A stretch of 38,163 nucleotides of DNA from Aquabacterium sp. (GTDB lineage: Bacteria > Pseudomonadota > Gammaproteobacteria > Burkholderiales > Burkholderiaceae_C). Location of the stretch: assembly GCA_023150345.1 (NCBI GenBank), contig JAKLLB010000036.1:1-38163 (forward strand). The letters run 5' to 3'. Both the position numbers and the translations under genes were made by a program. The notes beneath the pieces are model-generated. The model ran no database searches. It was not told the origin of the DNA and saw only the letters and a list, made by a program, of their open reading frames with translations. Shown piece by piece: positions 4,064-35,499 of the stretch; positions within the stretch are counted from its first letter, which is position 1, and every line of letters starts with the position of its first letter.

Positions 4064-5341
4064 ATGAAGAAGGGCTTCCACACCATCATGTCGGCGCAGT
4101 TCTTCAGCTCGCTGGCCGACAACGCGCTGACGGTCGCGGCCATCGAGTTGCTGCGGACCCAGCAGGCCCCGGCATGGCACGTGCCCGCGCTGGCCGTGAT
4201 GTTTGCGCTGTTCTACGTGCTGCTGGCCCCGTTCGTCGGCGCCTTCGCCGACGCCGTTCCAAAGGGCCGGGTGATGTTCGTCTCGAACACCATCAAGGTG
4301 TGCGGCTGCCTGATGATGTTGTTTGGCGGCCATCCGCTGCTGGCCTATGCCGTGGTGGGCCTGGGCGCCGCGGCCTACTCGCCAGCCAAGTACGGCATCC
4401 TGACCGAGCTGCTGCCGCCGTCGCAGCTGGTCAAGGCCAACGGCTGGATCGAGGGCCTGACCATCCTGTCCATCATCGCCGGCACCGTGCTGGGCGGGCA
4501 ACTCGTGGGCCCGCGTATCGCGCCTTGGCTGCTGGGCATGGATGTGCCTGCCATCGATACCGGCATCGACACCCCGCCGGAGGCGGCGATCGTGGTGCTG
4601 CTGCTGTTGTACGGCGTGGCTGCCGTGTTTAACCTGTTCATCCCGCGCACGGAGGCGCCGCTGCAGCCGCTGACGCTGCGCGCGGGCCAGCTGCTGGCCG
4701 ACTTCTCGCAATGCAACGCCCGGCTGTGGAACGACAAGCTGGGCCAGATCTCGCTGGCCACCACCACCATGTTCTGGGGCGTGGGCGGCAACATGCGCAT
4801 CATCGTCTTCCCGTGGGCCGCGGCGGCGCTGGGGTACAGCACCACCCAGGCCTCGTCGCTGGCCGGCGTGGTGTCGATCGGCGTGGCCGCAGGCGCCGTG
4901 GTCGCCTCGATGCGCATGCGCCTGGACCGCGCCACCAGCGTGATCCCGCTGGGCGTGGTGATGGGGGTGCTGCTGATCGGGTTGAACGCGATCCGCGACC
5001 TCTGGGTGGCGGTGCCCTTTCTCATCATGCTCGGCGCGGCCGGCGGCTACCTCGTGGTACCTATGAATGCACTGCTGCAGCACCGTGGCCACAACCTGAT
5101 GGGCGCGGGCCGCTCCATCGCCGTGCAGAACTTCAACGAGCAGGCCTGCATCCTCGGCTTGGCCGCCTTCTACACCGGCATGACGAAGTTCGGCCTGTCG
5201 GCATTCGCGGCCATCGCCCTGTTCGGGTTGCTGGTCAGCGGCACGATGGGACTGATCTGGCGCTGGCACGCGCGCAACTGCGTGCAGCACCGTGACGAGG
5301 TGGAGCGGCTGCTGGCCATCGCCCGCACCGACAAGCATTGA
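4064..5341 (+). CDS. lplT: Lysophospholipid transporter LplT
   Basis: MFS-type inner-membrane flippase that moves lysophospholipids to the cytoplasmic face for re-acylation. The protein is 425 residues with about 12 hydrophobic segments. The N-terminal AQFFSSLADNAL segment and the YSPAKYGILTELLP segment are characteristic of LplT. In E. coli lplT lies next to aas; here the next gene is a DMT permease, and the acyltransferase function appears instead at 30.3 kb fused to a second LplT-like domain. The stop codon overlaps the TTG start of the following gene. The ribosome site is weak. Confidence 0.9.
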   Translation: MKKGFHTIMSAQFFSSLADNALTVAAIELLRTQQAPAWHVPALAVMFALFYVLLAPFVGAFADAVPKGRVMFVSNTIKVCGCLMMLFGGHPLLAYAVVGLGAAAYSPAKYGILTELLPPSQLVKANGWIEGLTILSIIAGTVLGGQLVGPRIAPWLLGMDVPAIDTGIDTPPEAAIVVLLLLYGVAAVFNLFIPRTEAPLQPLTLRAGQLLADFSQCNARLWNDKLGQISLATTTMFWGVGGNMRIIVFPWAAAALGYSTTQASSLAGVVSIGVAAGAVVASMRMRLDRATSVIPLGVVMGVLLIGLNAIRDLWVAVPFLIMLGAAGGYLVVPMNALLQHRGHNLMGAGRSIAVQNFNEQACILGLAAFYTGMTKFGLSAFAAIALFGLLVSGTMGLIWRWHARNCVQHRDEVERLLAIARTDKH

Positions 5342-10290: not shown

Positions 10291-11805
<1,515 letters not shown>

Positions 11806-11887
11806 GGGGAGTCCTCTGGCGGTGGTGCGTGTCGGCCCACAGTCTAGGCAGCGCAGGCGCGGCACGACAGCCCGCCGCGCGGGACAC

Positions 11888-11931
11888 ATTGTTCGCGATG
11901 ATGAACAATCTGCCCTGAATTGTCTGAACAA
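11888..11931. promoter_or_regulatory. Dyad operator in the mmsA-lysR divergent promoter
   Basis: ATTGTTC (11888-11894), an 8-base spacer, then GAACAAT (11903-11909) is a perfect 7+7 inverted repeat. A second site, TTGTCTGAACAA (11920-11931), reuses the GAACAA half-site with its copy 23 bases away, about two helical turns. The spacing of paired half-sites fits LysR-type RBS/ABS operators. I infer that the adjacent LysR protein binds here and controls mmsA and itself. Confidence 0.6.
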
Positions 11932-11944
11932 ACGGGTGCGCCGA

Positions 11945-12901
11945 ATGCAGGAACGGGCGAGGATCGAGGCACTTTGGTCCCATGTGCATTGGCTCACGAT
12001 GCTCGGGCAGTGCGGCAGCTACACCGCCGCCGCGCAGCGCCTGGGCGTGAGCAAGGCGGCGATGAGCGCGCGCATCGCCGAGCTCGAGCGTGCGGCTGGC
12101 GTGCAGCTGGTGCGCCGCACCACCCGCAGCGTGCGCCTGACCGAGGCCGGACAGCAGCTGGCCGACACCACCCGCGAGTCCTACGCCGCCATTGCGGCGG
12201 CGTTTGCCGGCGTGCGCGACCTTGCCGCCGTGCCGCGGGGGCGCTTGCGCATCACGGCGCCGGTGGCACTGGCGCGCCAGCAGCTGGTACCGCGGCTGCC
12301 GGAATTCCTGCGCGCCCATCCCGAAGTGCGCGTCGAGCTCGACCTGTCGGACCGGCTGGTGCCGCTGTCGCAGGAGGGCTACGACCTGGCGATCCGGCAC
12401 ACGCATGCGCCACCCGAGACGCATGTGGCCTGGACGCTGTGCGTCACCCGCAGCGTGCTGGTGGCCAGCCGCAGCTACCTGCGCCGCCGTGGCGTGCCCA
12501 AGACGCCGGCCGACCTGGCGCAGCACGACTGCCTGACCTACCCGCGGCCCGACGAGCCGCCGGCCTGGCAACTGGTGCCCCTCGATGCGGCGGCCAAGGC
12601 CGCGCCGGCCGCCAAGGTCACGGTGCCGGTGGGCGGCCCGTTCTCCGCCAACAACAGCGAGGCGCTGCGCGAGGCCGCGCAGGCCGGGCTGGGGATCGCG
12701 CTGCTGCCCGACTTCAGCGCCCAGGCGGGCCTGGCCAGCGGACGGCTACAGCGGGTGCTGCCGCGATGGGAGCCGGTCGGCAGCTTCGGCGCCCACCTGT
12801 ACGCCATCCGGCCCTACAGCGCCTACGTGCCGCGAGCCGTGCAGGCGCTCGTGAGCTACCTGCGCGAGTCATTGAAGGGCGGGTTCGGGGTGCCCGACTG
12901 A
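11945..12901 (+). CDS. LysR-family transcriptional regulator
   Basis: A 318-residue LTTR. The N-terminal winged helix-turn-helix is clear (residues about 10-65: [24 protein letters not shown]), with an effector-binding domain from about 90 onward containing [13 protein letters not shown] and LPDFSAQ segments. ATG 11945 was chosen because upstream codons lie within the operator region and are not LTTR-like. It is transcribed divergently from mmsA, so valine or beta-alanine catabolic intermediates are plausible effectors (inference). It ends toward the cyclodeaminase gene. Confidence 0.9.
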
Positions 12902-12930
12902 TCGGCGAACCGATCGGCGAAGCGACGGCC

Positions 12931-12965
12931 AAAAAAAGAGAGCCCGGCGATTGCTCGCGGGCTCT
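12931..12965 (-). terminator. Intrinsic terminator, leftward
   Basis: AGAGCCCG (12939-12946), an 11-base loop, then CGGGCTCT (12958-12965): a perfect 8-bp stem. Read leftward it is followed by T7 (complement of A7 at 12931-12937), a textbook Rho-independent terminator for leftward transcription. A second small hairpin, GTCCTT-CGAG-AAGGAC, sits just upstream on that strand at 12970-12985. It lies 155 bases past the cyclodeaminase stop, an unusually long 3' UTR unless a separate transcript ends here. Confidence 0.75.
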
Positions 12966-13072
12966 GCAAGTCCTTCGAGAAGGACGTCGTTGGGATCGCC
13001 GCGGCGCGCTCCTGGTTGCGCCGCCTGCCGCGTGGCTGCTCCCGGGGGGGGTGGGGCAACAACCGGCAATCG

Positions 13073-13109
13073 GGGGACTGTGCCCCAACCGGAGGGGTCT
13101 GCACATCCC
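13073..13109. promoter_or_regulatory. Pair of G/C dyads, 21 bp apart, in a convergent gap
   Basis: GGGGACTGTGCCCC (13073-13086) and GGGGTCTGCACATCCC (13094-13109) are two related imperfect dyads whose starts are 21 bases apart, two helical turns. They lie between two genes that both end here, where promoter elements are not expected. A G8 run (13044-13051) is adjacent. They may be operators for an unannotated leftward small transcript ending at 12931, or an RNA structure. No convincing -35/-10 pair was found. Confidence 0.3.
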
Positions 13110-13119
13110 TAGAACGTAG

Positions 13120-14055
13120 TCACAGGGGACCCGGATCTTGCAGTGCCGCCTGCGCACAGCGGGCGGCTGCCAGGTCCCACAGTGCATGGCCGCAGCTCTT
13201 GAACAGCACCGGGCCGCGGTCCTGGCGGGCGGGGGCGTCGGCCAGTGCAGGGCAGGCTGCGAGGTCGAGCCCGGCTTGCAGCAGGTCCCCGGCTTCCTGG
13301 CGGGCGCGGTCACTGTCGATCACCACCTGGCCGCGCGCGGCGATGTCGCGCACCAGTGCGGCATCGAGCTCGACCATCCCGGGGTGGAAGGAGCCGATCG
13401 CCGCGACGAAGGCGTCGTCGCGCACCCGGCCCTGCAGGCACACGGCGTGCGCCGGGGTCGCGGTCAGGACCAGCGGGCAGCGATCGAGCGCAGCCTGCAA
13501 GTCAGTGGCCACTTCGGCGTACACGCCCTGCTGGTGGAGCGTTTGTGCGAACGTGCTGGCCGATGCTGCGGTGCGGCCGCGGACCCAGACTTCGTCCACG
13601 CCGAGCGCCTGGGTGCAGGCCTGGACATGCGCCATCGCCTGCACGCCGGTGCCGATGACCAGCAGCGGCCCGACCGGATTGGGCGCCAGGTGGCGTGCCG
13701 CGTGCAGCGTCACCGCGGCCGTTCGCCGCGCCGTGAGCGCCGGACCATCGAGCAGTGCCAGCCGCTTCCCGGTGGACGTGCGCAGCACCAGCACATCGCC
13801 CAGGATGGCCGGCAGGCCGCGCTCGGGGTTGTCCGGCGCATAGGTGATCAGCTTGATCGCGGTGAGATCACCGGCGGTGGCATCCAGCCAGGCCGGCATC
13901 ACGAACGCATGGGTGCGCTCGGCCAGCGGCAGCACCCAGCGATCGGGCGCATGGGCATGGCCGGCTGCGGCATCGGCGAGCGTGCGCTCGATGGCGGCGA
14001 CCAGCTCGGGCCAGGGCAGGGCGAGTGCGGTGGCGGTGGCGTCGAGGATCTGCAT
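13120..14055 (-). CDS. Ornithine cyclodeaminase/mu-crystallin family enzyme
   Basis: A 311-residue NAD(P)-dependent enzyme of the OCD/mu-crystallin family. The Rossmann loop VIGTGVQA is at about 133-140, and the family substrate-side segments IKLITYAPDN (Lys68) and LTARRTAAV (110-116) are present. The family includes ornithine cyclodeaminase, alanine dehydrogenase and delta1-pyrroline-2-carboxylate reductase. The last is most common for solitary proteobacterial copies, but the substrate is not determined here. No proline-racemase or hydroxyproline genes flank it. It is divergent from the YecA-like gene with an 87-base gap; TATGAT on the minus strand (14124-14119) is a possible -10. Confidence 0.85.
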   Translation of the reverse strand: MQILDATATALALPWPELVAAIERTLADAAAGHAHAPDRWVLPLAERTHAFVMPAWLDATAGDLTAIKLITYAPDNPERGLPAILGDVLVLRTSTGKRLALLDGPALTARRTAAVTLHAARHLAPNPVGPLLVIGTGVQAMAHVQACTQALGVDEVWVRGRTAASASTFAQTLHQQGVYAEVATDLQAALDRCPLVLTATPAHAVCLQGRVRDDAFVAAIGSFHPGMVELDAALVRDIAARGQVVIDSDRARQEAGDLLQAGLDLAACPALADAPARQDRGPVLFKSCGHALWDLAAARCAQAALQDPGPL

Positions 14056-14142
14056 GGGGGGTTGCGGCTGGGCCTCAAGAGATTGGGCGACGACGCCCGA
14101 GCGGGCGTGGATCGCATGATCATAGGCAGGTCACAATGCCGC

Positions 14143-14856
14143 ATGCCCACTCGCTCCGCTGCCCGCCCCGCCGTCGGCCCTGGTTCGAACCCCGTGCCCG
14201 GCCCGCTGTCGGAGCCTGAACTCGATCGCCTGCAGGCCTTGCTCGATCGCCTGGCGCCTGAGTGCGAGCCGCTGGACATCGTGGCCATCGACGGCTACTT
14301 GTGCGGCGTGCTGCTGCAGTCGCGGGCAGTGCCTGCGGCACGTTGGTTGCCGGGCATCGTCGATGTCGATGGCCGCCCCGCGCCGGCGGCCTATCCGATC
14401 GACGAACTGCGCGCCCTGCTCGAGCGCCGGCATGCCGAGCTCGACCGCTCGATCGCGCACCGGCAGTGGTTCGACCCGTGGGTCTACCAGCTCGACGAGG
14501 ACGCCACTCCATCCGAGACCGTCTTGCCCTGGGTTGCGGGTTTTGCCGCGGCGATGGAGGCGTTCCCGCAGCTGCTGGAGCAGCATGAGGCGCAGCTGAT
14601 CGAGCCGCTGGCCACGCTGTACCGCCACTTCGACCCCGACGACCTCGAGGATGCCGACGCGCTGCTCGAGGAGATCGAGATGCTGGAGCTGCCCGTCGAC
14701 CTGCCCGAAGCGGTGGAGGACCTGGTGCGCAGCGTGCTGCTGATCGCCGACGTGTCGCGCCCGCGCCGCGAGACCGCCGGCGGCGTCAGCCGAAGACCCG
14801 GCGGGCGTGCACGCCCAGGCCCTGCGCCACGCTCGCGTAGCGGTCGCCGCGGATGA
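14143..14856 (+). CDS. YecA/YgfB (UPF0149) family protein
   Basis: A 237-residue acidic protein resembling the UPF0149 family: the helical LDIVAIDGYLCGVLL near residue 42 and LPWVAGFAAAMEAFP near 128 are its hallmark segments. Its function is unknown. Many YecA proteins end in a zinc-binding SEC-C motif; this one ends instead in a basic Arg/Pro/Gly-rich tail. The ATG at 14143 was chosen; an in-frame ATG at 14116 is also possible and has comparable ribosome spacing. The last 71 bases overlap the 3' end of the leftward Hsp70 gene, so the basic tail is coded antisense to it. Confidence 0.75.
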   Translation: MPTRSAARPAVGPGSNPVPGPLSEPELDRLQALLDRLAPECEPLDIVAIDGYLCGVLLQSRAVPAARWLPGIVDVDGRPAPAAYPIDELRALLERRHAELDRSIAHRQWFDPWVYQLDEDATPSETVLPWVAGFAAAMEAFPQLLEQHEAQLIEPLATLYRHFDPDDLEDADALLEEIEMLELPVDLPEAVEDLVRSVLLIADVSRPRRETAGGVSRRPGGRARPGPAPRSRSGRRG

Positions 14857-18775: not shown

Positions 18776-21607
18776 TCAGGCGCCGAGTTCGGCCTTGAGC
18801 CGGGCCACGTCGGGCGGCAGCGGCGCGCGACCGGCCGCCGCCAGCACGACGGCGAGCTCCTCGCGTGCCTCGGCTTTGCGGCCCGCCTTGTGCAGGGCAA
18901 CCGCCAGGTGGAATCGGGTCTCCACATTGCCCGGTTCGCGCAGCCGCGCGTCGCGCAGGTGGCGCAGGCCGGCATCGAGCTGACCCTGCTGCACCAGGAT
19001 CCAGCCGAGCAGGTCGATCGTGCGGGCGTTGCCGGGCGCCAGCTGAACGGCCCGTGCGGCGGTGGCCGCCGCTGCGGCATCGCCCAGGCGCAGCTGCAAT
19101 GCCGCCAGGCTGGCCAGGGTTGCGGCATCGTTCGGATCGGCGACGAGGACCTGCTCGAAGCTCTTGCGGGCGGCCTCGAACTGCCCGGCACCTTGCTGCA
19201 CTTCGGCCAAGGCCTTCAGCGCCAGCCGGTCCTGCGGATGGCGCCGGGCCCAGTCGGCCAGGAACTCCACGGGCTTGACGCGCTCGCCGGTGGCCAGCCA
19301 GGCGCCAGCCATGGCGATTGCGGTGGCCGTCGACGGCTCGCGCTCCATGGCGGTGCGGTACTCGGCCAGTGCCACTGCGGCTTGGCCCCGCGCCATCGCC
19401 AGGCTGGCCGCGGTCAGGGCCGTGGCGGCGGCCTGCGGATGCCGCGCGCGCAGGGTCTTCAGAGCGGCATCGACGGCCGCACTGTCCTTGCGACGGGCTG
19501 CCAGCTCGACCTGCAGGACCAGTGCCCCCAGGTCATCGGGGCGGCCTTTCAAGGCCTTGGCCACGCTGTAGTCGGCGCCGTCGAGGTGACCGGCGGCCAT
19601 CTGCAGGCGGCCAATGCCCACCAGCATGCCAGCGTCGAACTCGGCCAGGCGGGTGGCCTCGGTGAGTGCGGCGCGGCTGGCGGCGGCGTCGCCCGCGGCC
19701 ATCTGGGCTCGTGCCAGGGCGAGCGTCACCTGGATCTGGCCGGGGAACTGGGCGGTCAGCGTACGCGCCAACGCCACAGCCTTGTCGGATTGCCTCTGGG
19801 TCAGATACTGGTTGACCATGGCCAGACCCGGCCGGGCGTCCTTGCGTTGGACGTCGGTCGAGCGCTGCCAGTGCCGCATGGCCTCGGCCGGTCGGCCCGC
19901 ACGCAGCTCCAGCATGCCGAGCTGGAACAGCACGTCGGGGTCGTCGCGGCGGGTGGTGAGCATCTGCGTGAGGCGGGCGCGCGCCGGATCGAAGCGACCC
20001 TCTTCGATGTCCAGCCAGCTCAGGTTGATGCCGGCCGGACGGAACTTCGGATCGCGGGCCAGGACGCCCTCGAAGGCCTGGCGGGCACCGGCCTTGTCGC
20101 CGGTGCGCCCGCGCACGTTGCCCAGGAAATTGAGCATGGTGAGGTTGGCGGGATCGGCCTTGACGATGGCCTCGGCCGTCTGCACGGCCTTGGCCGGCTG
20201 CCCGCTGCGGGCGTACACCATTGCCAGCTGCACGGCGGCGCTTGCGTCGCGCGGGTCGGCGGCCAGCGCCTTCTCGAGGTTGGCCAGTCCTGCCTTGTCC
20301 TGGCCCAGTGCCATCTGGCTGTAGCCCAGGTCGCGCAACACCTCGGGCGAGGCTTGCCGCGCCGCAGCCTGTTCGAACAGCTCGGAGGCCCGCAGGTAGT
20401 TGCGCCGACCCATCTGGATGGTGCCCATCAGGTAGGCCACGTGCGGGTCGTCGGGGCGGATGCGCTGCGCCGCCTCGAGCAGCGGCAGGGCGCGGGTGGG
20501 CTCGCGAGCGTCCAGGTGTATCGACGCCAGCAGCGTCATGGCCGCGACGTGGCGCCCGTTGCGGCCCAGCAGCGTTTCGAGGTATTCCTGGGCCTGGCTG
20601 GTGTTGCCCAGCGCGCGGTGCGCCAGCGCGCCCGTCATGAGGGCCTGCTCGTTGCCGGCACGCCATGCCGGCGGTGCCGCGTCCACCAGGGCCGCGGCCT
20701 CGGCATAGGCGGCCTTGGCAGCGGCGCCGTCGGCACGGCGGCTGGCCAACAGTCCAGTGAGGTACGACGCCCGCGGGTCGGCCTGTCGCGCTGCCTTGAG
20801 GGCGGCAAGGTCAGCCGCCGCATCTGCGTCGCGACCGTTGCCGTAGAGCAGGCTCGCCCGAACGATGCGGGCTTCGGCGAGCTGGCCATCGAGCGTGATC
20901 GACTGCTCCAGTGCCGCCAGCGCGCCGGGCGCGTCGCCCAGCGCCTGCAGCACCGTGCCCAGGGCCTGCCAGGCTGCGGCATTGCGGGGAGCCAGTTCGG
21001 TGGCCTTCTGTGCCGTCGCGCGGGCGCGGTCCCGCTCGCCGCTCTTGAGCAGCAGGGGGGCTTCGGCGATCAGCGGCAGCGGCGACTTCGGATCGAGGGT
21101 ACGGGCCTGAGCGAACGCCTGCGAGGCTTGGGCGGGCTGGGCGGACATCGACAGCGCCGTGCCGCGCAGCGTCAACGCTTCGACGTGCAGATGCTGCGGC
21201 AGCCCGGGCAGGGTGACCAGGTCGAGCAGCTTGCGGGGCTCGCCCTGCAACAGGTAGAGCTGGCCCATCGGCAGCGCCACTTCGGCACGGTTCACGCCGA
21301 GCTTGAGCGCCTGCTCGAATGCGGCTTCGGCACCCTTGAGTTCGCCCTGGCGCAGCAGTGCCTTGCCCAGCAGCAAGTGGGCGGCAAGGAGTTGGGCGTC
21401 CTGCTGGATCGCGTTCTTGAGCTGCAGCACGCTGCCGGGCAGGTCGTTCTTCTCGTAGCGCTGCAACGCGTCTTCGTAGAACCGCGAGGCCTGTTCCGGC
21501 GCGGCCCAGGGTTGCGCGCTGGCCATGGCGAGCGACAGTGCGAGGCCCCATCGCGCCGCACGGGCGTGGCGGGTTGGACGGTGCGCGGTGGCGTGGTGAC
21601 TGGGCAT
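18776..21607 (-). CDS. prsT: PEP-CTERM system TPR-repeat protein PrsT
   Basis: A 943-residue exported protein made almost entirely of tetratricopeptide repeats (roughly 20 or more 34-residue units). The N-terminal block RFYEDALQRYEKND...QLKNAIQQDAQLLAA closely matches the start of the PrsT family, which accompanies exosortase/PEP-CTERM systems in betaproteobacteria. PrsT is normally a lipoprotein. Here residues 19-36 form a signal peptide ending in an Ala-rich site (AQPWAA) and no cysteine is seen, so it should be released or otherwise held. The neighbouring PEP-CTERM gene downstream supports the role. The gap between the two is 186 bases, so they may have separate promoters. Confidence 0.85.
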   Translation of the reverse strand: MPSHHATAHRPTRHARAARWGLALSLAMASAQPWAAPEQASRFYEDALQRYEKNDLPGSVLQLKNAIQQDAQLLAAHLLLGKALLRQGELKGAEAAFEQALKLGVNRAEVALPMGQLYLLQGEPRKLLDLVTLPGLPQHLHVEALTLRGTALSMSAQPAQASQAFAQARTLDPKSPLPLIAEAPLLLKSGERDRARATAQKATELAPRNAAAWQALGTVLQALGDAPGALAALEQSITLDGQLAEARIVRASLLYGNGRDADAAADLAALKAARQADPRASYLTGLLASRRADGAAAKAAYAEAAALVDAAPPAWRAGNEQALMTGALAHRALGNTSQAQEYLETLLGRNGRHVAAMTLLASIHLDAREPTRALPLLEAAQRIRPDDPHVAYLMGTIQMGRRNYLRASELFEQAAARQASPEVLRDLGYSQMALGQDKAGLANLEKALAADPRDASAAVQLAMVYARSGQPAKAVQTAEAIVKADPANLTMLNFLGNVRGRTGDKAGARQAFEGVLARDPKFRPAGINLSWLDIEEGRFDPARARLTQMLTTRRDDPDVLFQLGMLELRAGRPAEAMRHWQRSTDVQRKDARPGLAMVNQYLTQRQSDKAVALARTLTAQFPGQIQVTLALARAQMAAGDAAASRAALTEATRLAEFDAGMLVGIGRLQMAAGHLDGADYSVAKALKGRPDDLGALVLQVELAARRKDSAAVDAALKTLRARHPQAAATALTAASLAMARGQAAVALAEYRTAMEREPSTATAIAMAGAWLATGERVKPVEFLADWARRHPQDRLALKALAEVQQGAGQFEAARKSFEQVLVADPNDAATLASLAALQLRLGDAAAAATAARAVQLAPGNARTIDLLGWILVQQGQLDAGLRHLRDARLREPGNVETRFHLAVALHKAGRKAEAREELAVVLAAAGRAPLPPDVARLKAELGA

Positions 21608-28523: not shown

Positions 28524-28991
28524 ATGAGCACTCCCGGCACCTCCTCCCTGATTCGCCGCGACACCGCCGCCTGGCGCCTGCAGGTGTGGCTGTCGTTCGC
28601 CCTGTCGGCATCGCTGTGCGCCATCGGCCTGGCCTGGCTTCCGGGCGACGACATCGACCGCGCGTTCATGGTGATGGGCTACGTGTTCTGCCTGTCCACC
28701 GCATTTGCCCTGGCCAAGTTCATCCGCGACAACCAGCACCGACGTGTCGACAGCCCGATGTGGAAGCTGGTGGTGTGGGGCGGCTTTCTTCTGGCCATGG
28801 CGCTGACGGGCTGGGGCCTGTGGCGCATGGGCATCCAGCCGGTGTGGAAGGCTTACCTGCTGGTGTGCTGGCTGTTCCTGATCTCCAGCGTCTTCACGCT
28901 GGCCAAGACCCTGCGCGACGCCTACGACGCCGATTTGCTCGAGGCCCGCTTGTCCGGCCGCGCCGAGGCTCAGCAGGAAGCCAGTGCCTGA
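28524..28991 (+). CDS. YiaA/YiaB-family inner-membrane protein
   Basis: A 155-residue membrane protein with four hydrophobic segments (about 17-38, 48-67, 82-101, 108-128) in two similar halves; the second of each pair ends FALAKFIRDN and FTLAKTLRDAYD. This internal repeat matches the YiaA/YiaB two-helix domain. The function is unknown. It begins a run of eight rightward genes, with 45 bases to the next one. Confidence 0.8.
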   Translation: MSTPGTSSLIRRDTAAWRLQVWLSFALSASLCAIGLAWLPGDDIDRAFMVMGYVFCLSTAFALAKFIRDNQHRRVDSPMWKLVVWGGFLLAMALTGWGLWRMGIQPVWKAYLLVCWLFLISSVFTLAKTLRDAYDADLLEARLSGRAEAQQEASA

Positions 28992-29036
28992 GGCTCGCCC
29001 CACCGCCTGCTGCCGCAACCGATCGAAAGGACTTCC

Positions 29037-29501
29037 ATGAACACCCTCCTCATTGCCCAGGCCGCGTCGAAGCAGGGCGGCTTGCGCCCCCCAAGGCTGC
29101 GCCAGCGCATGGGGGCCTGGGCCGCGGCCCTGGCCATGGCCTGCGCGGCGCCGGTCGCGGTGCACGCCCACGGCGGCGCCTCGGAGCTCAGCGCGATCTC
29201 GCTGCTGCCGGTGGCCGTCGTCGTCGCGGCGCCGGCGATGGTGCTGTCGGCCGGCGCCACCCTCACGGTGGTGGCGGTCGAAGCCTCGGCCCAGGGCACG
29301 GTGTGGGTGCTCGAGCGGGCCTCGGACGGCGTGCGCGCCTCGGTGGAGCTGGCCGCAGGTTCGGCCGTCGCGGTGGGCACCGCGGTGATGGTGACCGCCG
29401 TGAGCACGGGCTGGATCTTGTCCGCCGCCGGCCAGGCGATCGCGTTCGTCCCCAACGAGATCGGCGCCTCGCTGCTGTACAACGAACGGGTGACGCGATG
29501 A
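29037..29501 (+). CDS. Exported membrane protein of unknown function
   Basis: A 154-residue protein I do not recognise. A cationic N-terminus and a hydrophobic stretch (26-44) end in AVHAHGG, a probable signal peptide. Two more hydrophobic segments follow (about 56-80 and 108-138). AAAGGA precedes ATG 29037. The stop overlaps the DUF2145 start as ATGA, so the two products are made together and may interact. Confidence 0.7.
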   Translation: MNTLLIAQAASKQGGLRPPRLRQRMGAWAAALAMACAAPVAVHAHGGASELSAISLLPVAVVVAAPAMVLSAGATLTVVAVEASAQGTVWVLERASDGVRASVELAAGSAVAVGTAVMVTAVSTGWILSAAGQAIAFVPNEIGASLLYNERVTR

Positions 29502-30307
29502 AACGGCCCGCGCTGCGCGCCGGCGTGCTGGCCGGCGCCGTGTGGGCCGCCACCTGGCTGGCCGCACCTGCGGCGCAGGCCGGGCGTGCCTGCGAGGAGC
29601 AACCGCTGCAGGCGGCAGCGGTGCAGCAGGGCATGGCGCTGGCGCAAGCCACGGCCAGGTCGCTGCAGTCCAGCGGCGCCCGCGTGGTGCTGCTGGCCCG
29701 CGCGGGACAGGACCTGGGCAAGTACGGCCTGCGCTGGTCGCACCTCGGGTTTGCCTATCGCGAAGAAGGCTCGTCCGGGGCTCCGGTGTGGCGGGTGGTG
29801 CACAAGCTCAACCACTGCGGTACCGCGCAGGCGCAGCTGTATCGCCAGGGGTTGGGCGAGTTCTTCCTCGACCGCCCGCACCGTTACGAGGCGGCCTACA
29901 TCGCGCTGTCGCCGCAACTGCAGGCGCAATTGCTGCCACTGCTGCGCGACAACCGCCAGGTGGCGCGCATGCACCAGGCGGCCTACAACATGGTGGCCTA
30001 CCCTTGGTCCACGCGCTACCAGCAGAGCAACCAGTGGGTGCTGGAAACCCTGGCCATGGCTGCCGGCGGCGCAGCCGACCGCGGCCAGGCGCAGAGCTGG
30101 CTGTCGCGCCAGGGCTACGAGCCCACCACGCTGCGACTGTCGGCCTTCACTCGTCTGGGGGCGCGCGCAACGGCGGCCAACGTCGCCTTCGACGATCACC
30201 CGAACGACAAGCGCTTCAGCGACCGCATCGAGACGGTGACCGTCGACTCGATGTTCCAGTGGCTGGTGCGCGCGGGGCTGGGGACAACTCCGGTGACGGT
30301 GTCATGA
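29498..30307 (+). CDS. DUF2145 family exported protein
   Basis: A 269-residue protein with a signal peptide (1-28, AAQAG). It matches what I recall of DUF2145: AGQDLGKYGLRWSHLGFAYRE (69-89), VHKLNHCGTAQ (101-111), FFLDRPHRYEAAYIALSP and SNQWVLETLA. His82, His102 and Cys107 are possible active-site residues, and the SHLGF context recalls NlpC/P60-like YiiX enzymes; this is inference. It is coupled by ATGA to genes on both sides, so it belongs to the same transcription unit as the lipid genes downstream. Confidence 0.82.
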   Translation: MKRPALRAGVLAGAVWAATWLAAPAAQAGRACEEQPLQAAAVQQGMALAQATARSLQSSGARVVLLARAGQDLGKYGLRWSHLGFAYREEGSSGAPVWRVVHKLNHCGTAQAQLYRQGLGEFFLDRPHRYEAAYIALSPQLQAQLLPLLRDNRQVARMHQAAYNMVAYPWSTRYQQSNQWVLETLAMAAGGAADRGQAQSWLSRQGYEPTTLRLSAFTRLGARATAANVAFDDHPNDKRFSDRIETVTVDSMFQWLVRAGLGTTPVTVS

Positions 30308-32280
30308 GCGGGCCGCTACAGTCGGCAGCGCCCGCTCACGGTGGCGCGGCAGACTTGGGGCCGCATGACGCCGGCCAGGGAGACCCCCGCGTGAGTGCGC
30401 ACGACCATCCGAACCAGTTCGCGCTGCTGAGCCAGCGCCGCTTTGCGCCGTTCTTCTGGACGCAGTTCCTCGGCGCGGGCAACGACAACCTGTTCAAGTT
30501 CGCCTTCACGGTGATGGTGACCTACCAGCTGCAGGTGTCGTGGCTGCCGCCGTCCAAGGCGGGCCTGGTGATCGGCGCGGTGTTCATCCTGCCGTTCCTG
30601 CTGTTCTCGGCCACCAGCGGGCAGATCACCGACAAGCACGACAAGACCGCGGTGATCCGGTTCGTGAAGAACCTCGAGATCGGCATCATGGCGCTGGCGG
30701 CGCTGGGCTTCATGACGGCACATGTCGCCGTCCTGCTCACCTGCGTGTTCCTGATGGGGCTGCACTCCACGCTCTTCGGGCCGGTGAAGTACGCCTACAT
30801 GCCGCAGCACCTGAACGAACGCGAGCTCACCGGCGGCAACGGCATGGTCGAAATGGGCACGTTCGTGGCCATCTTGCTGGGCAACGTGCTCGGCGGGCTG
30901 CTCATCGCCATGCCGGAGGTGGGCGCGCGCTACGTGGCCATCGGCTGTGTGCTGGCGGCCGTGGCCGGCCGGTTCACGGCGCAGCTCGTGCCGCCCACGC
31001 CGGCCACCGACCCGGGCCTGGTGATCAACTGGAACCCGGTCACCGAGACCCTGCGCAACCTCAAGCTGGCGCACGGCAACATCGTCGTCTTCCGCTCGCT
31101 GCTGGGCATCAGCTGGATGTGGTTCTTCGGCGCGGTGTTCCTGTCGAACTTCCCGGTCTTCGCCAAGGAGGTGCTGCACGGCAACGAAGGCGTGGCCTCG
31201 CTGCTGCTGGTGGTGTTCTCGATCGGCATCGGCATCGGCTCGCTGCTGTGCGAGATGCTGTCCAAGCGCCACGTCGAGATCGGCCTGGTGCCTGCCGGAG
31301 CCATCGGCATGAGCGTGTTCGCGATCGACCTGTACTTCGCCTCGCGGGCTTTGCCGCCGTCGGCGGCGATGTCGGTGGCCGAGTTCCTGTCGCATGCCAC
31401 CCACTGGCGCGTGATCTTCGACCTCGGGCTGCTCAGCCTGTTCGCCGGCATCTACAGCGTACCGATGTACGCGCTGATCCAGCTGCGCAGCCAGCCCTCG
31501 CACCGGGCGCGGGTGATCGCGGCCAACAACATCCTCAATGCGCTGTTCATGATCGTCAGCTCGGTGGCCGCCGGCGCCATGCTCACGGCCGGCTTCAGCG
31601 TGCCCGAGGTCTTCCTGGCCACCGGCATCGCCAACGCCGCGGTGGCCATCTACATCTTCCTGCTGGTGCCCGAGTACCTGCTGCGGTTCGTGGCCTTCCT
31701 GCTCACCCGCTGCGTCTACCGCTTTCGCGTGCGTGGCGATGTGAACATCCCCACCGAAGGTGCCGCGCTGATCGTGTGCAACCACGTCAGCTTCATCGAC
31801 GCCATCGTGCTCATGGCGGCCAGCCCGCGGCCGATCCGCTTTGTCATGGACCACCGCATCTTCCAGCTGCCGGTGCTGGGCTGGCTGTTCAAGCTGGCCA
31901 AGGCCATCCCGATCGCGTCGCAGCGCGAGAACCCGGCCACCTACGCGGCGGCCTTCGAGGCGGCCGACCGGGTGCTGGCCGATGGCGACCTGCTGTGCAT
32001 CTTTCCAGAAGGCGGCATCACCCGCGACGGCCAGTTGCAGCCATTCAAGGGTGGCGTCATGAAGATCCTCGAGCGCCGGCCGGTGCCGGTGGTGCCGGTG
32101 GCCTTGCAGAACCTCTGGGGCTCCTACTTCTCACGTGTCGAGAACGGCACGGCGATGGTGCGACCCTTCCGCCGCGGCCTGTGGAGCCCCGTCGGCCTGG
32201 TGGCCGGCGAGGCCGTAGCGCCGTCGCAAGTGAGCCCCGAGCGCCTGCGCGATCGGGTGGCCACTTTGCTGGCGGCGTAA
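30304..32280 (+). CDS. LplT-like MFS transporter fused to PlsC-type acyltransferase
   Basis: A 658-residue two-domain membrane protein. Residues about 35-430 form an MFS domain with LplT-like features (FLGAGNDNLFKFAF, GPVKYAYMP, ELTGGNGMVEMGTF). Residues about 450-658 form a lysophospholipid acyltransferase domain with HX4D at His494-Asp499 (NHVSFID) and FPEGGIT (567-573). Together they should flip lysophospholipid inward and re-acylate it. The AMP-binding acyl-ACP synthetase domain that completes Aas-type fusions is absent, so acyl donor supply must come from elsewhere. ATG 30304 overlaps the DUF2145 stop. Confidence 0.9.
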   Translation: MSGPLQSAAPAHGGAADLGPHDAGQGDPRVSAHDHPNQFALLSQRRFAPFFWTQFLGAGNDNLFKFAFTVMVTYQLQVSWLPPSKAGLVIGAVFILPFLLFSATSGQITDKHDKTAVIRFVKNLEIGIMALAALGFMTAHVAVLLTCVFLMGLHSTLFGPVKYAYMPQHLNERELTGGNGMVEMGTFVAILLGNVLGGLLIAMPEVGARYVAIGCVLAAVAGRFTAQLVPPTPATDPGLVINWNPVTETLRNLKLAHGNIVVFRSLLGISWMWFFGAVFLSNFPVFAKEVLHGNEGVASLLLVVFSIGIGIGSLLCEMLSKRHVEIGLVPAGAIGMSVFAIDLYFASRALPPSAAMSVAEFLSHATHWRVIFDLGLLSLFAGIYSVPMYALIQLRSQPSHRARVIAANNILNALFMIVSSVAAGAMLTAGFSVPEVFLATGIANAAVAIYIFLLVPEYLLRFVAFLLTRCVYRFRVRGDVNIPTEGAALIVCNHVSFIDAIVLMAASPRPIRFVMDHRIFQLPVLGWLFKLAKAIPIASQRENPATYAAAFEAADRVLADGDLLCIFPEGGITRDGQLQPFKGGVMKILERRPVPVVPVALQNLWGSYFSRVENGTAMVRPFRRGLWSPVGLVAGEAVAPSQVSPERLRDRVATLLAA

Positions 32281-32296
32281 CGCGGGGGCGGCAGCC

Positions 32297-32527
32297 ATGT
32301 GGCGGGTGATGGTGATCGTGCTCCTCGCGTTCGGCGTGGTCGGCTTCGGCGCCTGCGCCCTGTGTGCGAGTGTCTACGGCCTGACGGCGCGCAACGCGTC
32401 GGAGTTCCTCGGCATCGCCGTCGCGGCGGCGGTCCTGACGGGCCTGTGCATCTGGGGCATCCGCCGCCTGCGCCTGGGGCGTGGCGCACCCGCGTCCGAT
32501 GGGTCGCCGCCACCACCCGCCGGATGA
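32297..32527 (+). CDS. Small two-helix membrane protein
   Basis: A 76-residue protein with two hydrophobic helices (about 4-24 and 37-55) and a basic, Pro-rich cytoplasmic tail. Its family is unknown. It begins 16 bases after the MFS-PlsC gene and its stop overlaps the ATG of the Lgt-like gene (ATGA), which supports it as a real, co-translated gene. It could be an accessory subunit. Confidence 0.65.
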   Translation: MWRVMVIVLLAFGVVGFGACALCASVYGLTARNASEFLGIAVAAAVLTGLCIWGIRRLRLGRGAPASDGSPPPPAG

Positions 32528-33282
32528 TCGATCACCCGGCCACGGCGGCAATGGCCCACACGGCGCTGGAGTACGCCGGCATGGCCATCGGCGTGGCGCT
32601 CTATCGGCAGAACCGCTCGGCGCAAGGGCTGGGCGGGCTGACGCAGCCCGGTGGCTTCGCGATCATCGTCGGGTTGCTCGCCGGCGCGGGCCTGGGCAAC
32701 AAGCTCGTGTTCCTCATCGAGCGGCCCGATGTCGCGCAGCTGCTGTGGGCGGGCCAGTGGGTGTGGCCGGGCCAGTCCATCGTTGGCGGCTTGCTCGGCG
32801 GACTGGTCGGCGTGGAGCTGGCCAAGGCATGGACCGGGCAGACACGCTCGACCGGCGATGCGATGGTGTGGCCGCTGGCGGTGGGCATCGCGATCGGCCG
32901 CGTCGGTTGCTTCCTGGCCGGCCTGCACGACGACACCTACGGCCTGCCGACCGCTCGCGCGTGGGCGGTCGATTTCGGCGACGGCGTGCCCCGTCATCCC
33001 ACCCAGCTCTACGACCTGCTGGCCGTGCTGGTGCTGGCCTGGGCGGCCACGGCCGGGCATCGGCGCCTGGCAGCGGTGCCAGGCTTGCAGTTCAAGCTGT
33101 TCCTCGCGGGCTACCTGGCCTGGCGCCTGCTCGTCGATGGCCTGAAGCCGGTGCGCGTGCCCTATCCCGGCGGGATCAGCGGCATCCAGTGGGCCTGTGC
33201 GCTGGCGCTGGCGCTGTACCTGCCGGTGTGCATGCGCGCATGGGCGCGCTTGCCCGACTCGCCGAAGGCGGCCGCGTCGTGA
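32524..33282 (+). CDS. Diverged Lgt-like (prolipoprotein diacylglyceryl transferase family) protein
   Basis: A 252-residue polytopic protein of the Lgt family. GRVGCF (125-130) with a following D-x-YG, RHPTQLYD (157-164), and the closing segment WRLLVDGLKP (200-209) align with Lgt motifs. It departs from true Lgt at key points: the HGG motif is replaced by QSIVGGLLGG (84-93, no His), and the Asn of GRIGNF is Cys129. It is also shorter than E. coli Lgt. It is therefore probably not the housekeeping Lgt but a relative that moves a lipid group to or from another acceptor (inference). The next gene is the radical SAM enzyme, 67 bases on. Confidence 0.8.
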   Translation: MIDHPATAAMAHTALEYAGMAIGVALYRQNRSAQGLGGLTQPGGFAIIVGLLAGAGLGNKLVFLIERPDVAQLLWAGQWVWPGQSIVGGLLGGLVGVELAKAWTGQTRSTGDAMVWPLAVGIAIGRVGCFLAGLHDDTYGLPTARAWAVDFGDGVPRHPTQLYDLLAVLVLAWAATAGHRRLAAVPGLQFKLFLAGYLAWRLLVDGLKPVRVPYPGGISGIQWACALALALYLPVCMRAWARLPDSPKAAAS

Positions 33283-33349
33283 GCCGCCTGGGCGCCATGG
33301 CGAAGGCCCCCAGCGGCGGGCCACGACGCACTTCCGGACGCACGACACC

Positions 33350-34828
33350 ATGACCCGCAAGACGCGCCCCTACCTCTTCTACGACACCACTGCATCGGTG
33401 TGCACCACGTGCCTGAGGCAGGTGGAGGCCAAGATCCTCTTCAAGGATGGCCATGTCCACATGGACAAATGGTGCCCGGTACATGGCACCGAGCGCGTGC
33501 TCATCAGTGACGACGAGGCCTACTACCGGCTTGGCCGCGAGGTCTTCGTCAAGGCACCCGAGTTGCCGGGGCACTTCGCCACCGCCATGCACTGGGGCTG
33601 CCCGTACGACTGCGGCCTGTGTCCGGATCACATGCAGCATGCCTGCCTGTCGATCATCGAGATCACCGACCACTGCAACCTGCGCTGCCCCACCTGCTAT
33701 GCCGCCAGCGGGCCGCATCGGTTGACGCACCGATCGATGGCCGAGGTGCGGGCGATGCTCGATGCGGTGATCGCAGTGGAGGGGCAGGCCGATGTGGTGC
33801 AGATCTCCGGCGGCGAGCCCACGCTGCATCCGCACTTCTTCGAGGTGCTGGCCGAGGCCCGCGCGCGGCCGATCCGCCACTTGATGCTCAACACCAATGG
33901 CCTGCGGCTGGCCCAGGAGCCCGGGTTCGCCGAACAGCTGGCTCGAGCCGTGGATGGCGGTCGCGCGTTCGAGGTCTACCTGCAGTTCGACTCGCTGGCG
34001 CGCGATCCGCTGCTGGCGCTGCGGGGTGCCGACCTGCGTCGCGTCCGCGAGCAAGCCCTGCAGCGGCTCGAGGCGCTGGGGCTGTCGACCACGCTGGTGA
34101 TGACCGTGCGCCGCGGCTTGAACGACCACGAGGTCGGTGACGTGATCCGCTACGCCACCCAATGGTCGTGCGTGCGCGGGGTCACGCTGCAACCGGTTCA
34201 GGATGCCGGCCGCAACGATGGCTATGACGCGCGGATGCACCGCCTGACGGTCAGTGAACTGCGGCGTCGCATCGTCGAGCAGTCGGGGGTGTTCACGCCC
34301 GACGACATCTTGCCGGTCCCATGCAACCCGGACAACCTGGCGATGGCCTATGCGGTGCGCACGGCCACCGGCCTGCAACCTCTGACACGCTATCTCGATG
34401 CGCGGGCGCTGGTGGAGGGTTCGGCCAATACCATCGTCTTTGAGCGCGACGAGCGCCTGAAGGAGCAGGTGTTCCGTCTGTTCGCCACCAATCACTCGCC
34501 GCAATCGCAGGCCGGGTGCCTGAGCGAGCTGATGTGCTGCCTGCCGCAGATCGACGCACCGCCGCAGTTCGACTACCGCCACGTCTTTCGGGTGCTGGTG
34601 GTCCAGTTCATGGATGCGTTGTCGCTCGACCTGCGCTCGCTCAAGAAGAGTTGCATCCACATGGCTCGGCCCGACGGTCGCCTGATCCCGTTCGAGAGCT
34701 TCAACCTGTTCTACCGCGATGAGCGCGCGGATCTGCTGGCGGGATTGCAGCGGGAGCTGGGTCGCTTCCATGAGGCTCGGCGCCGCACGGTACCGGTGCA
34801 ATCGACCGGCGAGGGGGGGGCGAGTTGA
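33350..34828 (+). CDS. Cysteine-rich radical SAM enzyme resembling tetraether synthase (Tes/MJ0619)
   Basis: A 492-residue radical SAM protein. Cysteine layout: C-x2-C (18, 21) with C-x2-H (42, 45) suggests a rubredoxin-like site; Cys84, 88, 91 and 99 an auxiliary cluster; CNLRCPTCY (109, 113, 116) the radical SAM cluster, with SGGEP at 153-157. The C-terminus holds Cys274, 325, 390, 396, 397 and 435, with SCIHMARPDGRLIPFESFNLFYRD. This order matches my knowledge of the MJ0619/Tes family (COG1964), whose archaeal member joins two lipid chains by C-C bonds. The last cysteine usually seen in the PFC-x-YN segment is Glu449 here. The substrate is unknown; neighbours suggest a lipid. Confidence 0.82.
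   Translation: MTRKTRPYLFYDTTASVCTTCLRQVEAKILFKDGHVHMDKWCPVHGTERVLISDDEAYYRLGREVFVKAPELPGHFATAMHWGCPYDCGLCPDHMQHACLSIIEITDHCNLRCPTCYAASGPHRLTHRSMAEVRAMLDAVIAVEGQADVVQISGGEPTLHPHFFEVLAEARARPIRHLMLNTNGLRLAQEPGFAEQLARAVDGGRAFEVYLQFDSLARDPLLALRGADLRRVREQALQRLEALGLSTTLVMTVRRGLNDHEVGDVIRYATQWSCVRGVTLQPVQDAGRNDGYDARMHRLTVSELRRRIVEQSGVFTPDDILPVPCNPDNLAMAYAVRTATGLQPLTRYLDARALVEGSANTIVFERDERLKEQVFRLFATNHSPQSQAGCLSELMCCLPQIDAPPQFDYRHVFRVLVVQFMDALSLDLRSLKKSCIHMARPDGRLIPFESFNLFYRDERADLLAGLQRELGRFHEARRRTVPVQSTGEGGAS
34813..34820 (+). repeat. G8 slippery tract at the radical SAM/CPBP junction
   Basis: Eight G residues read as GAG GGG GGG GCG AGT TGA at the end of the radical SAM gene. The CPBP gene is in the -1 frame relative to it, and that frame is open across the tract through TTG 34825. 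A -1 slip here would join the two proteins. Confidence 0.7.
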
Positions 34829-35499
34829 TCCCGCCGTCGCGCGCGGCATGGCTGCGGGCTGCGCCGTTCATGGCGTTCATGGCCATCCTGATGCTCAGGG
34901 GCCAGGCGGCGCAGTGGCTGCCCGGCGTCGATGGACGATGGCTCTACGCCGCGAACCTGCTGGTGGTGGCGCCGATGCTCGTGCTGTGGTGGCGCGAGTA
35001 CGGCGAGCTGGCATGGCAGAACCGGCCGCTGGCGCGCGAAGCGGCGCTGGCGGTGGGGGTGGGGTTCGCGGTGTTCGGCCTGTGGATCGCGCTGGACGCG
35101 CCGTGGATGCAGGTGGGCGAGCCCGCGGCGAGTTTCGTGCCGCTGGATGCCGAGGGCGGCTTGGTGTGGCCGCTGGTGGCGGTGCGCTGGGCCGGCGCAG
35201 CGCTGCTGGTGCCGGTGATGGAGGAGCTGTTCTGGCGCTCCTTCCTGATGCGCTGGATCGATCGCCCCGACTTTGCAGCGGTCGATCCGCGCAGCGCCAC
35301 CGTGCGAGCCGTGATGTTGTCGACCTTCGCGTTCACGCTGGTGCACACCCAGTGGCTGGCCGCTGTGCTTGCCGGGCTGGCGTATGCCACGCTGTACCGC
35401 GCCACCGGCCGGCTGTGGAACGCGGTGATCGCGCATGCGGTGACCAATGCCGCGCTGGGCACCTGGGTCGTGGTTACCGGCAACTGGGCCTACTGGTGA
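34825..35499 (+). CDS. CPBP/CAAX-type intramembrane protease
   Basis: A 224-residue polytopic protein of the CPBP (type II CAAX protease, Abi) family. The glutamic protease motif EE-x3-R is at Glu133-Glu134-Arg138 (VMEELFWRSFL), with His174 in TLVHTQWLA and His204-x3-Asn208 in AHAVTN. The C-terminal WLAAVLAGLAYATLYRATGRLW segment resembles the CAAX protease-related group linked to exosortase/PEP-CTERM systems (from memory). It starts at TTG 34825, overlapping the radical SAM stop as TTGA. It is the last gene of the operon. Substrates could be processed lipid-anchored or PEP-CTERM proteins; this is inference. Confidence 0.85.
   Translation: MIPPSRAAWLRAAPFMAFMAILMLRGQAAQWLPGVDGRWLYAANLLVVAPMLVLWWREYGELAWQNRPLAREAALAVGVGFAVFGLWIALDAPWMQVGEPAASFVPLDAEGGLVWPLVAVRWAGAALLVPVMEELFWRSFLMRWIDRPDFAAVDPRSATVRAVMLSTFAFTLVHTQWLAAVLAGLAYATLYRATGRLWNAVIAHAVTNAALGTWVVVTGNWAYW

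Follow-up and report, generated by a model that had tools for sequence, protein, structure and literature searches.

A recurring gene set joins small helix-cysteine membrane proteins, an Lgt paralogue and a Tes/TrsS-related radical SAM enzyme

Introduction

The diacylglyceryl transferase Lgt forms a thioether between a cysteine and a diacylglycerol drawn from phosphatidylglycerol, and the lipobox of its targets shows G, A or S at the position just before the cysteine (-1); flippases of the LplT type, together with acyltransferases, repair lysophospholipids. For Lgt, residues R143 and R239 have been reported as essential, lying at the phosphatidylglycerol site with roles in donor binding and transfer (PMC4728403), and H103, the arm and the head domain have been tied to the specificity for the protein substrate (PMC13251419). 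The same source describes H103, N146 and R246 as variable in some distant Lgt proteins, H103 not being universal, and states that Lgt is absent from archaea (PMC13251419). Among radical S-adenosylmethionine (SAM) enzymes, Tes joins the inert ends of lipid chains with two SAM consumed per bond, and its homologues occur as well among bacteria with no known synthesis of biphytanyl chains (PMC9433317), 456 bacterial homologues having been listed without a known role (PMC8941075). Here we report on positions 28524-35499 of contig JAKLLB010000036.1 from Aquabacterium sp. (assembly GCA_023150345.1), where the genes for a small membrane protein, an Lgt-like protein and a Tes-related radical SAM enzyme follow one another; the window, that is, the whole stretch of DNA analysed, comprises 38,163 nucleotides.

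Other described systems approach this arrangement in single aspects. In the literature searched, the nearest idea in print is the lipidation of MYXO-CTERM proteins, for which it is proposed that Lgt or an enzyme like it modifies the invariant cysteine and that myxosortase cleaves afterwards (PMC11980579). Both systems place an invariant cysteine beside a helix, but in MYXO-CTERM the helix and an Arg-rich tail follow the cysteine and a CPBP protease cleaves, whereas here K/R and the helix precede the cysteine and the partner is a radical SAM enzyme. The membrane-spanning lipid synthase Mss, likened to the present locus by its description only, performs an analogous chain coupling of bacterial lipids, but the available description mentions neither an Lgt nor a small protein (PMC13274423). 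As for TrsS, a family of radical SAM (seleno)proteins, no function was found in the literature searched, where it is listed in one review table. The single families are known, and their three-part set is a new combination as far as could be found: no description of it turned up in the literature searched, which lacks most subscription papers and preprints, and no paper there brought 'diacylglyceryl transferase' and 'tetraether synthase' together.

Results and Discussion

A three-gene unit with a wide distribution

The conserved core of the locus is a small membrane protein, an Lgt paralogue and the radical SAM enzyme, and not an eight-gene operon. A previous sequence-only reading had taken eight rightward genes of the window as one pathway of lipid modification built around a Tes-like enzyme; it was right on the linkage of the Tes-like and Lgt-like genes and wrong on the extent of the unit, which is smaller, far more widespread and provided with a third gene, a 76-residue open reading frame (ORF), absent from that discussion. 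Loci were gathered around the radical SAM gene from named genomes (the best 80 of at least 572 confirmed relatives found with a 15-member alignment, A1, the fractions hence describing the nearer relatives) and pooled with others. From 101 pooled loci, 97 were kept after dropping L033, which lies outside the family, and L050, L074 and L077, which equal loci L024, L028 and L027; residue counts given below for the radical SAM protein come from 100 rows that include these three duplicates, and those for the Lgt-like protein, from 87 rows, also hold duplicates.

Counting strictly, that is, by hidden Markov model (HMM), on the same strand and within 3 kb of the radical SAM gene, an Lgt-like gene was present in 87 of the 97 deduplicated loci, upstream of its partner in 84 of the 87. 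It lay on the opposite strand in three further loci and was missing from seven, three of which (L032, L054 and L096) have the radical SAM gene at a contig end. The linkage seen by the earlier reading is far from being limited to this genome, and lipid chemistry is the field of both families. In the 80 named-genome loci, where tblastn counts were made on either strand, the Lgt-like gene was found near the radical SAM gene in 73 by tblastn and in 71 by the strict HMM rule, three more having it on the other strand, and it already accompanied 18 of the first 20 loci fetched, in which no other gene of the window was found (tblastn, E 1e-3). No Lgt-like gene was seen in 11 control loci holding radical SAM relatives from outside the family, some of these contigs being short or cut beside the radical SAM gene (L169, L176, L178).

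The remaining genes of the stretch behave differently. By tblastn, relatives of the YiaAB protein were found in 3 of the 80 loci, and those of ORF2, the DUF2145 protein and the CPBP protease in 4 each, whereas the fusion of an LplT-like flippase and a PlsC-type acyltransferase reached 13, one of them a weak opposite-strand match, in beta-proteobacteria. The 76-residue ORF was detected by tblastn in a single locus of the 80, yet far more widely by HMM (see below). Because of these neighbour counts, it is the pair, and not the eight genes, that recurs far beyond chance. A single eight-gene lipid pathway would fit the shared strand and the four overlaps between frames, but with four of its genes accompanying the pair in no more than 3-4 of 80 loci, and with no tblastn match to the other window genes in the 20 loci mentioned above, it is hardly credible. 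The linkage to the flippase-acyltransferase fusion, also named by the earlier reading, is supported within beta-proteobacteria. All-against-all clustering of ORFs of at least 110 residues in the 80 loci, a length that misses most small proteins, revealed no other neighbour spread over phyla beyond the core; what was left comprised antisense shadows and common-looking families judged from single members (ABC ATPase, DnaK, kinase, short-chain dehydrogenase), together with an AMP-dependent ligase family in 12 of the 80 loci, likewise judged from a single member.

The radical SAM protein matched 11 of 399 genomes of the order at E 1e-60, its own genome included and one match being only 33% identical, and 12 of 398 genomes of the phylum at E 1e-50. 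In three genomes of the same genus, with a completeness of 61, 86 and 100%, the Tes model had no more than weak matches (E 1e-13 to 1e-16; 4e-64 in the genome of the window), so the module looks accessory. Among the best 80 relatives we find, judging by record title, Burkholderiales, Rhodocyclales, Gammaproteobacteria, Myxococcota, Acidobacteria, Planctomycetota, Omnitrophota and Elusimicrobia, as well as Bacilli (Paenibacillus, Brevibacillus, Shimazuella), Methylacidiphilales, Chitinophagales and archaea. Of 72,556 plasmid records, 9 match the protein at E 1e-40; the best of them, from Persicobacter (50%), carries the pair and a short ORF, picked by eye, that ends in GTGICGSLLS. Three archaeal records hold the pair (L106, L107, L111), two from Poseidoniales (marine group II) and one from an 'uncultured euryarchaeote'; L106 also encodes PCNA, an argument against the contig being a contaminant from bacteria. 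An Lgt-family gene is in this way placed in archaeal records, where Lgt has been reported as absent (PMC13251419).

The small membrane protein and its conserved cysteine

The 76-residue ORF of Aquabacterium encodes two helices and gives only a sub-threshold match in Pfam; Cys20, in the sequence GFGAC, sits where the first helix reaches its outer end. Relatives with a GxGxCG motif adjoin the pair elsewhere, and two HMMs were built for such proteins: family A, an iterated model, and family B, with the cysteine in the last helix and a typical end LLNAACFG or LLVAACFG. Taking 900 bases as the limit for nearness, 77 of 101 loci show a match to either family close to the pair; after deduplication these are 74 of 97, with 95 near matches against 11 far ones, among which four are further tandem copies in L075, one (L024) falls just past the limit and six lie elsewhere. 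Across 207,787 bases of control sequence, made up of 19 control loci and the initial 28 kb of the window, the two final models had no match, the seed model of family A giving one control match at E 0.39. Moreover, a training-free rule, applied to 87 loci, picked an ORF near the pair on the module strand in 69 of them and on the opposite strand in 12, with densities of 0.52 hits per kb near, 0.096 opposite and 0.036 far.

The helix cysteine is present in 85 of the 95 near members, and 70 of the 97 loci have at least one such member. In these 85 proteins the cysteine comes after a charge-free run with a median of 19 residues, and this run follows K or R in 81, so that they share the order typical of lipoprotein signals, namely a positive residue, a hydrophobic run and a cysteine. 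Two or three small proteins are found in 19 of the 74 loci with matches, and L075 carries seven family B proteins in a row after the radical SAM gene (11241-14792), six of them with the helix cysteine; such tandem copies are as expected of substrates. Similar proteins were recognized by eye in loci lacking an HMM match, among them the three archaeal ones and L115, L120, L122, L092 and L031. In the Psychrobacter locus (L078) a similar helix-cysteine segment is followed by a larger domain, and in the archaeal L106 a 360-residue protein ends in one. Extra copies in the Aquabacterium genome are indicated only by matches at E 0.013 and 0.38.

The Lgt-like protein

Membership of the Lgt-like protein in Pfam PF01790 is clear-cut (74.9 bits, gathering threshold 24.9), as the earlier reading had it, but the protein stays far under the equivalog cut-offs (23 against 118.9 bits for TIGR00544, and 28.6 against 334 for NF000778, the PRK00052 model); a canonical lgt lies elsewhere in the same genome, with 270 bits. 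Residues were matched to Lgt by alignment with the 5azb structure, following E. coli numbering. The equivalents of R143 and R239, here R126 and R201, are invariant in 87 of 87 members and in six of six additional low-scoring ones, and those of Y235 and G154 in 87 of 87, with E98 and K101 as further invariants; the N-terminal helix, which would hold Y26, aligns ambiguously with the canonical protein. On the other hand, H103 of the HGGL motif is replaced by V in 69, L in 6, E in 5, I in 4 and A in 3 of the 87, N146 by Cys in all of them, and R246 by Lys in 85, with Arg in the other 2. In our reading, this pattern suggests that the donor chemistry of Lgt has been kept and its acceptor changed. 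Module members also differ from Lgt in occurring in archaeal records. The predicted model of the protein is confident (predicted local distance difference test, pLDDT, 91.5).

The radical SAM enzyme

A relationship with Tes, also named GDGT-MAS (MJ0619), is indicated by several lines of evidence. This enzyme is the closest relative of known structure by sequence (E 4.8e-63; profile 5.8e-90) and the best match of the predicted fold (7tol and 7tom, E around 2e-34, template-modelling score around 0.74), the next match having an E of 2.2e-10; the model has a mean pLDDT of 78.5 and is weak at residues 357-402. Pfam recognizes a zinc-ribbon (HMPTM) domain at the N-terminus. With the cluster ligands as defined for Tes (PMC9433317), the rubredoxin motif CX2CX20CX2H is kept (C18, C21 and C42 in 100 of 100 rows; H45 in 97, Cys in 3), as are the N-auxiliary ligands, three Cys and one His, and the radical SAM motif CX3CX2C (C84, C88, C91, H94, H97, C109, C113 and C116, all 100 of 100). 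The column of Met439, a ligand of the labile cluster in Tes, holds V in 51 rows, M in 45 and other residues in 4, and the M439A mutant of Tes is reported to remain active (PMC9433317).

Even so, the protein misses the cut-offs of both neighbouring NCBIfam models, with 254 bits against 450 for Tes (NF045702) and 304 against 490 for TrsS (NF045646), its highest score. Each of the 15 proteins in alignment A1 has matches to both models, the match to TrsS being full-length. As to the HMM placement on which the earlier reading had let its lipid interpretation depend, the protein lies outside the lipid family Tes and outside TrsS as well. In a tree, 40 rows of the family form a group of their own, with a support of 93/95 that lies just under the mark of the program; Tes, a second acidobacterial Tes-like group and three further bacterial relatives stand outside it, and L033 forms a long branch. 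The TrsS score might be read as pointing to a soluble or membrane cofactor-like product, made by an enzyme akin to the uncharacterised TrsS group with the Lgt-like protein acting on a non-lipid acceptor. Such a product is very unlikely, given that the enzyme is below the TrsS cut-off, that similarly scoring proteins (L033, L176 and L185) have no Lgt-like neighbour, L176 ending at a contig edge, and that the Lgt arginines are invariant.

The tandem small proteins beside a radical SAM gene call to mind the precursor arrays of ribosomally synthesised and post-translationally modified peptides, in which case the enzyme would modify the small protein itself, by a cross-link or a bond centred on the cysteine, and the Lgt-like protein would help to insert or anchor it. 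We regard this as improbable: the closest relative with a structure, in fold and in sequence, is Tes, a lipid enzyme, while SkfB, the next structure match, reaches a TMq of only 0.37, and residues of the small proteins other than the cysteine vary strongly.

A by-eye label of 'TrsS-like' for L033, L176, L178 and L185 was dropped; in a scan of L033, L176 and L185, neither the TrsS scores (265-336 bits) nor the Tes scores (259-324) reached the respective cut-off. A selenocysteine in the radical SAM protein was also considered and rejected, the in-match TGA in G642 being read as a natural stop: the ORF (465 residues) ends there, shortly before the match does. L185, on a plasmid of Mycolicibacterium vanbaalenii (NZ_CP126902.1), encodes a radical SAM relative with 35% identity, with genes for a methyltransferase, a second radical SAM protein, CcdA and a disulfide oxidoreductase as neighbours and no Lgt-like gene. 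The second Tes-like group (L170-L175, acidobacterial) scores 315-328 bits for Tes; when L170, L173 and L175 were aligned, the N-auxiliary cysteines were missing and Met439 and Tyr459 of Tes were kept, and these proteins are possible enzymes of membrane-spanning lipids.

Proposed mechanism

Small helix-cysteine membrane proteins, an Lgt-family enzyme and a Tes/TrsS-related radical SAM enzyme form a recurring three-part module, for which we tentatively propose, a little short of an even chance, that the Lgt-like protein puts a diacylglyceryl group on the cysteine of the small protein and that the radical SAM enzyme modifies the chains. In such a scheme the stretch of K/R, about 19 uncharged residues and cysteine would be read like a lipoprotein signal. 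The Lgt-like protein would bind phosphatidylglycerol through R126 and R201 and move its diacylglyceryl group onto the cysteine by a thioether bond, and the small protein would stay membrane-bound, as the module lacks a linked protease of its own. The radical SAM enzyme would take hydrogen from inert chain carbons, either those of the anchor or those of the donor lipid before transfer, and join or otherwise modify the chains; should it couple them end to end as Tes does, the lipid anchor would become ring-closed or membrane-spanning. In beta-proteobacteria, the flippase-acyltransferase fusion may repair lysophospholipids that arise, a function that fits an accessory role there. The more ambitious version, a second system of protein lipidation in bacteria and marine archaea, with Lgt paralogues lipidating the helix cysteine and the radical SAM enzyme coupling the chain ends of the anchor into a ring-closed or membrane-spanning form, is doubtful.

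A number of observations weigh against the lipidation proposal. Four loci without an Lgt-like gene beside the radical SAM gene do not lie at contig ends (L070, L100, L115, L123), 23 of the 97 loci have no small-protein HMM match, and in the Persicobacter plasmid the HMMs do not single out the ORF chosen by eye (E 0.04 and 0.13, other ORFs scoring equally). The small-protein counts come from HMMs trained on near matches only and from a rule written after the examples, and the loci are related to each other, so that the P value computed for the rule cannot be taken at face value. There is no strict lipobox, the residue at -1 being L in 38, A in 23, G in 8, T in 7, I in 4, F in 2, V in 2 and S in 1 of the 85 proteins. 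A Foldseek search with the Lgt-like model returned no Lgt, that of E. coli included, among the 50 matches listed; the identification as an Lgt relative leans on sequence evidence, by which the homology is clear despite this mismatch. In the radical SAM protein, the column of Tyr459, reported as completely conserved in 1000 archaeal Tes homologues (PMC9433317), is never Tyr (I 59, F 29, M 10 and L 2 of 100). Its C-terminal cysteines also differ from those of Tes, taking as reference L169, the single Tes over the cut-off: of the CxxxC pair only C325 is kept and the PFCAYN cysteine is lost, and in their place the family has C396 and C397, each in 99 of 100 rows, and C435 in all 100, which suggests that the C-terminal cluster may be held by another ligand set. 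Chain coupling by this enzyme is consequently not assured, and of the Tes-like identity given in the earlier reading what stands is the relatedness; in view of its score, its Tyr459 column and its altered C-terminal cysteines, an identity with Tes itself is not supported, and the pairing with an Lgt-like gene is a further difference.

The chief alternative is that the module modifies a free membrane lipid. The Lgt-like protein would then pass a diacylglyceryl group to another lipid or a small molecule, the radical SAM enzyme would couple or functionalise chains, the small protein would be a scaffold or lipid-presenting subunit, and the product would be a membrane-spanning or unusual phospholipid. 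The relationship with Tes and the flippase-acyltransferase fusion of beta-proteobacteria agree with this, as does the presence of the module in Acidobacteriota, a phylum with Tes homologues proposed for the synthesis of branched glycerol dialkyl glycerol tetraethers (PMC8941075). It leaves unexplained, however, the recurring helix cysteine and the tandem copies, as well as the invariant Lgt arginines with the loss of H103 only, and acidobacteria hold other Tes-like proteins, one of which exceeds the Tes cut-off, that have no Lgt-like gene next to them; we therefore consider a free lipid possible but rather unlikely.

With these results, one large group of Tes/TrsS relatives can be set in a defined genetic context, beside two partner genes and with a substrate candidate. 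Since several acidobacterial genomes carry the module enzyme beside other Tes-like proteins, some caution is also called for, as a bacterial match to Tes does not always mark a gene for membrane-spanning lipids.

Organization of the Aquabacterium locus and accessory genes

The eight open frames of the stretch (Table 1) are real genes and all run rightward, as the earlier reading had stated. Four-base overlaps between start and stop join four junctions, at 29498, 30304, 32524 and 34825, one fewer than the five it had counted, and the other gaps measure 45, 16 and 67 bases. Its family assignments were broadly right.

Table 1. Open frames at positions 28524-35499 of the window and the basis of their assignment
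Feature	Position	Strand	Basis and remarks
YiaAB protein	28524-28991	+	Pfam; linked only in Roseateles/Pelomonas-type loci, 3/80
ORF2, without family	29037-29501	+	Linked only in Roseateles/Pelomonas-type loci, 4/80
DUF2145 protein	29498-30307	+	Pfam; linked only in Roseateles/Pelomonas-type loci, 4/80
LplT-like major facilitator superfamily (MFS) + PlsC-type acyltransferase fusion	30304-32280	+	Pfam/NCBIfam; accessory, beta-proteobacteria
Small two-helix membrane protein, 76 residues, proposed acceptor	32297-32527	+	Family A HMM member
Lgt-like membrane transferase, PF01790 paralogue	32524-33282	+	Pfam LGT 74.9 bits
Radical SAM enzyme, Tes/TrsS-related family	33350-34828	+	Pfam Radical_SAM 81.7 bits
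CPBP protease, Rce1-like, TIGR03008	34825-35499	+	Pfam Rce1-like 60.6 bits; NCBIfam TIGR03008

The last of these genes had been included in the supposed pathway as a CAAX-type protease, a role that could not be maintained. In the four loci with a relative, this lies several kb upstream of the pair, and the Aquabacterium protein exceeds the cut-off of TIGR03008 ('CAAX prenyl protease-related protein', pepcterm_CAAX) with 200 against 81 bits. The window also encodes PrsT of the XrtA/PEP-CTERM system (18776-21607, minus strand; 467 bits, cut-off 312), and an exosortase is found on another contig of the genome (C44, 46836-47546; 248.5 bits); PrsT and exosortase explain the presence of the protease, which probably belongs to the PEP-CTERM set and not to the module. 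As a processing enzyme for the small protein, it was set aside on account of its linkage in 4 of 80 loci and the PEP-CTERM name of its model. A canonical LplT is encoded as well, at 4064-5341 on the plus strand (561 bits, cut-off 297), so that the window has two flippases of the LplT type.

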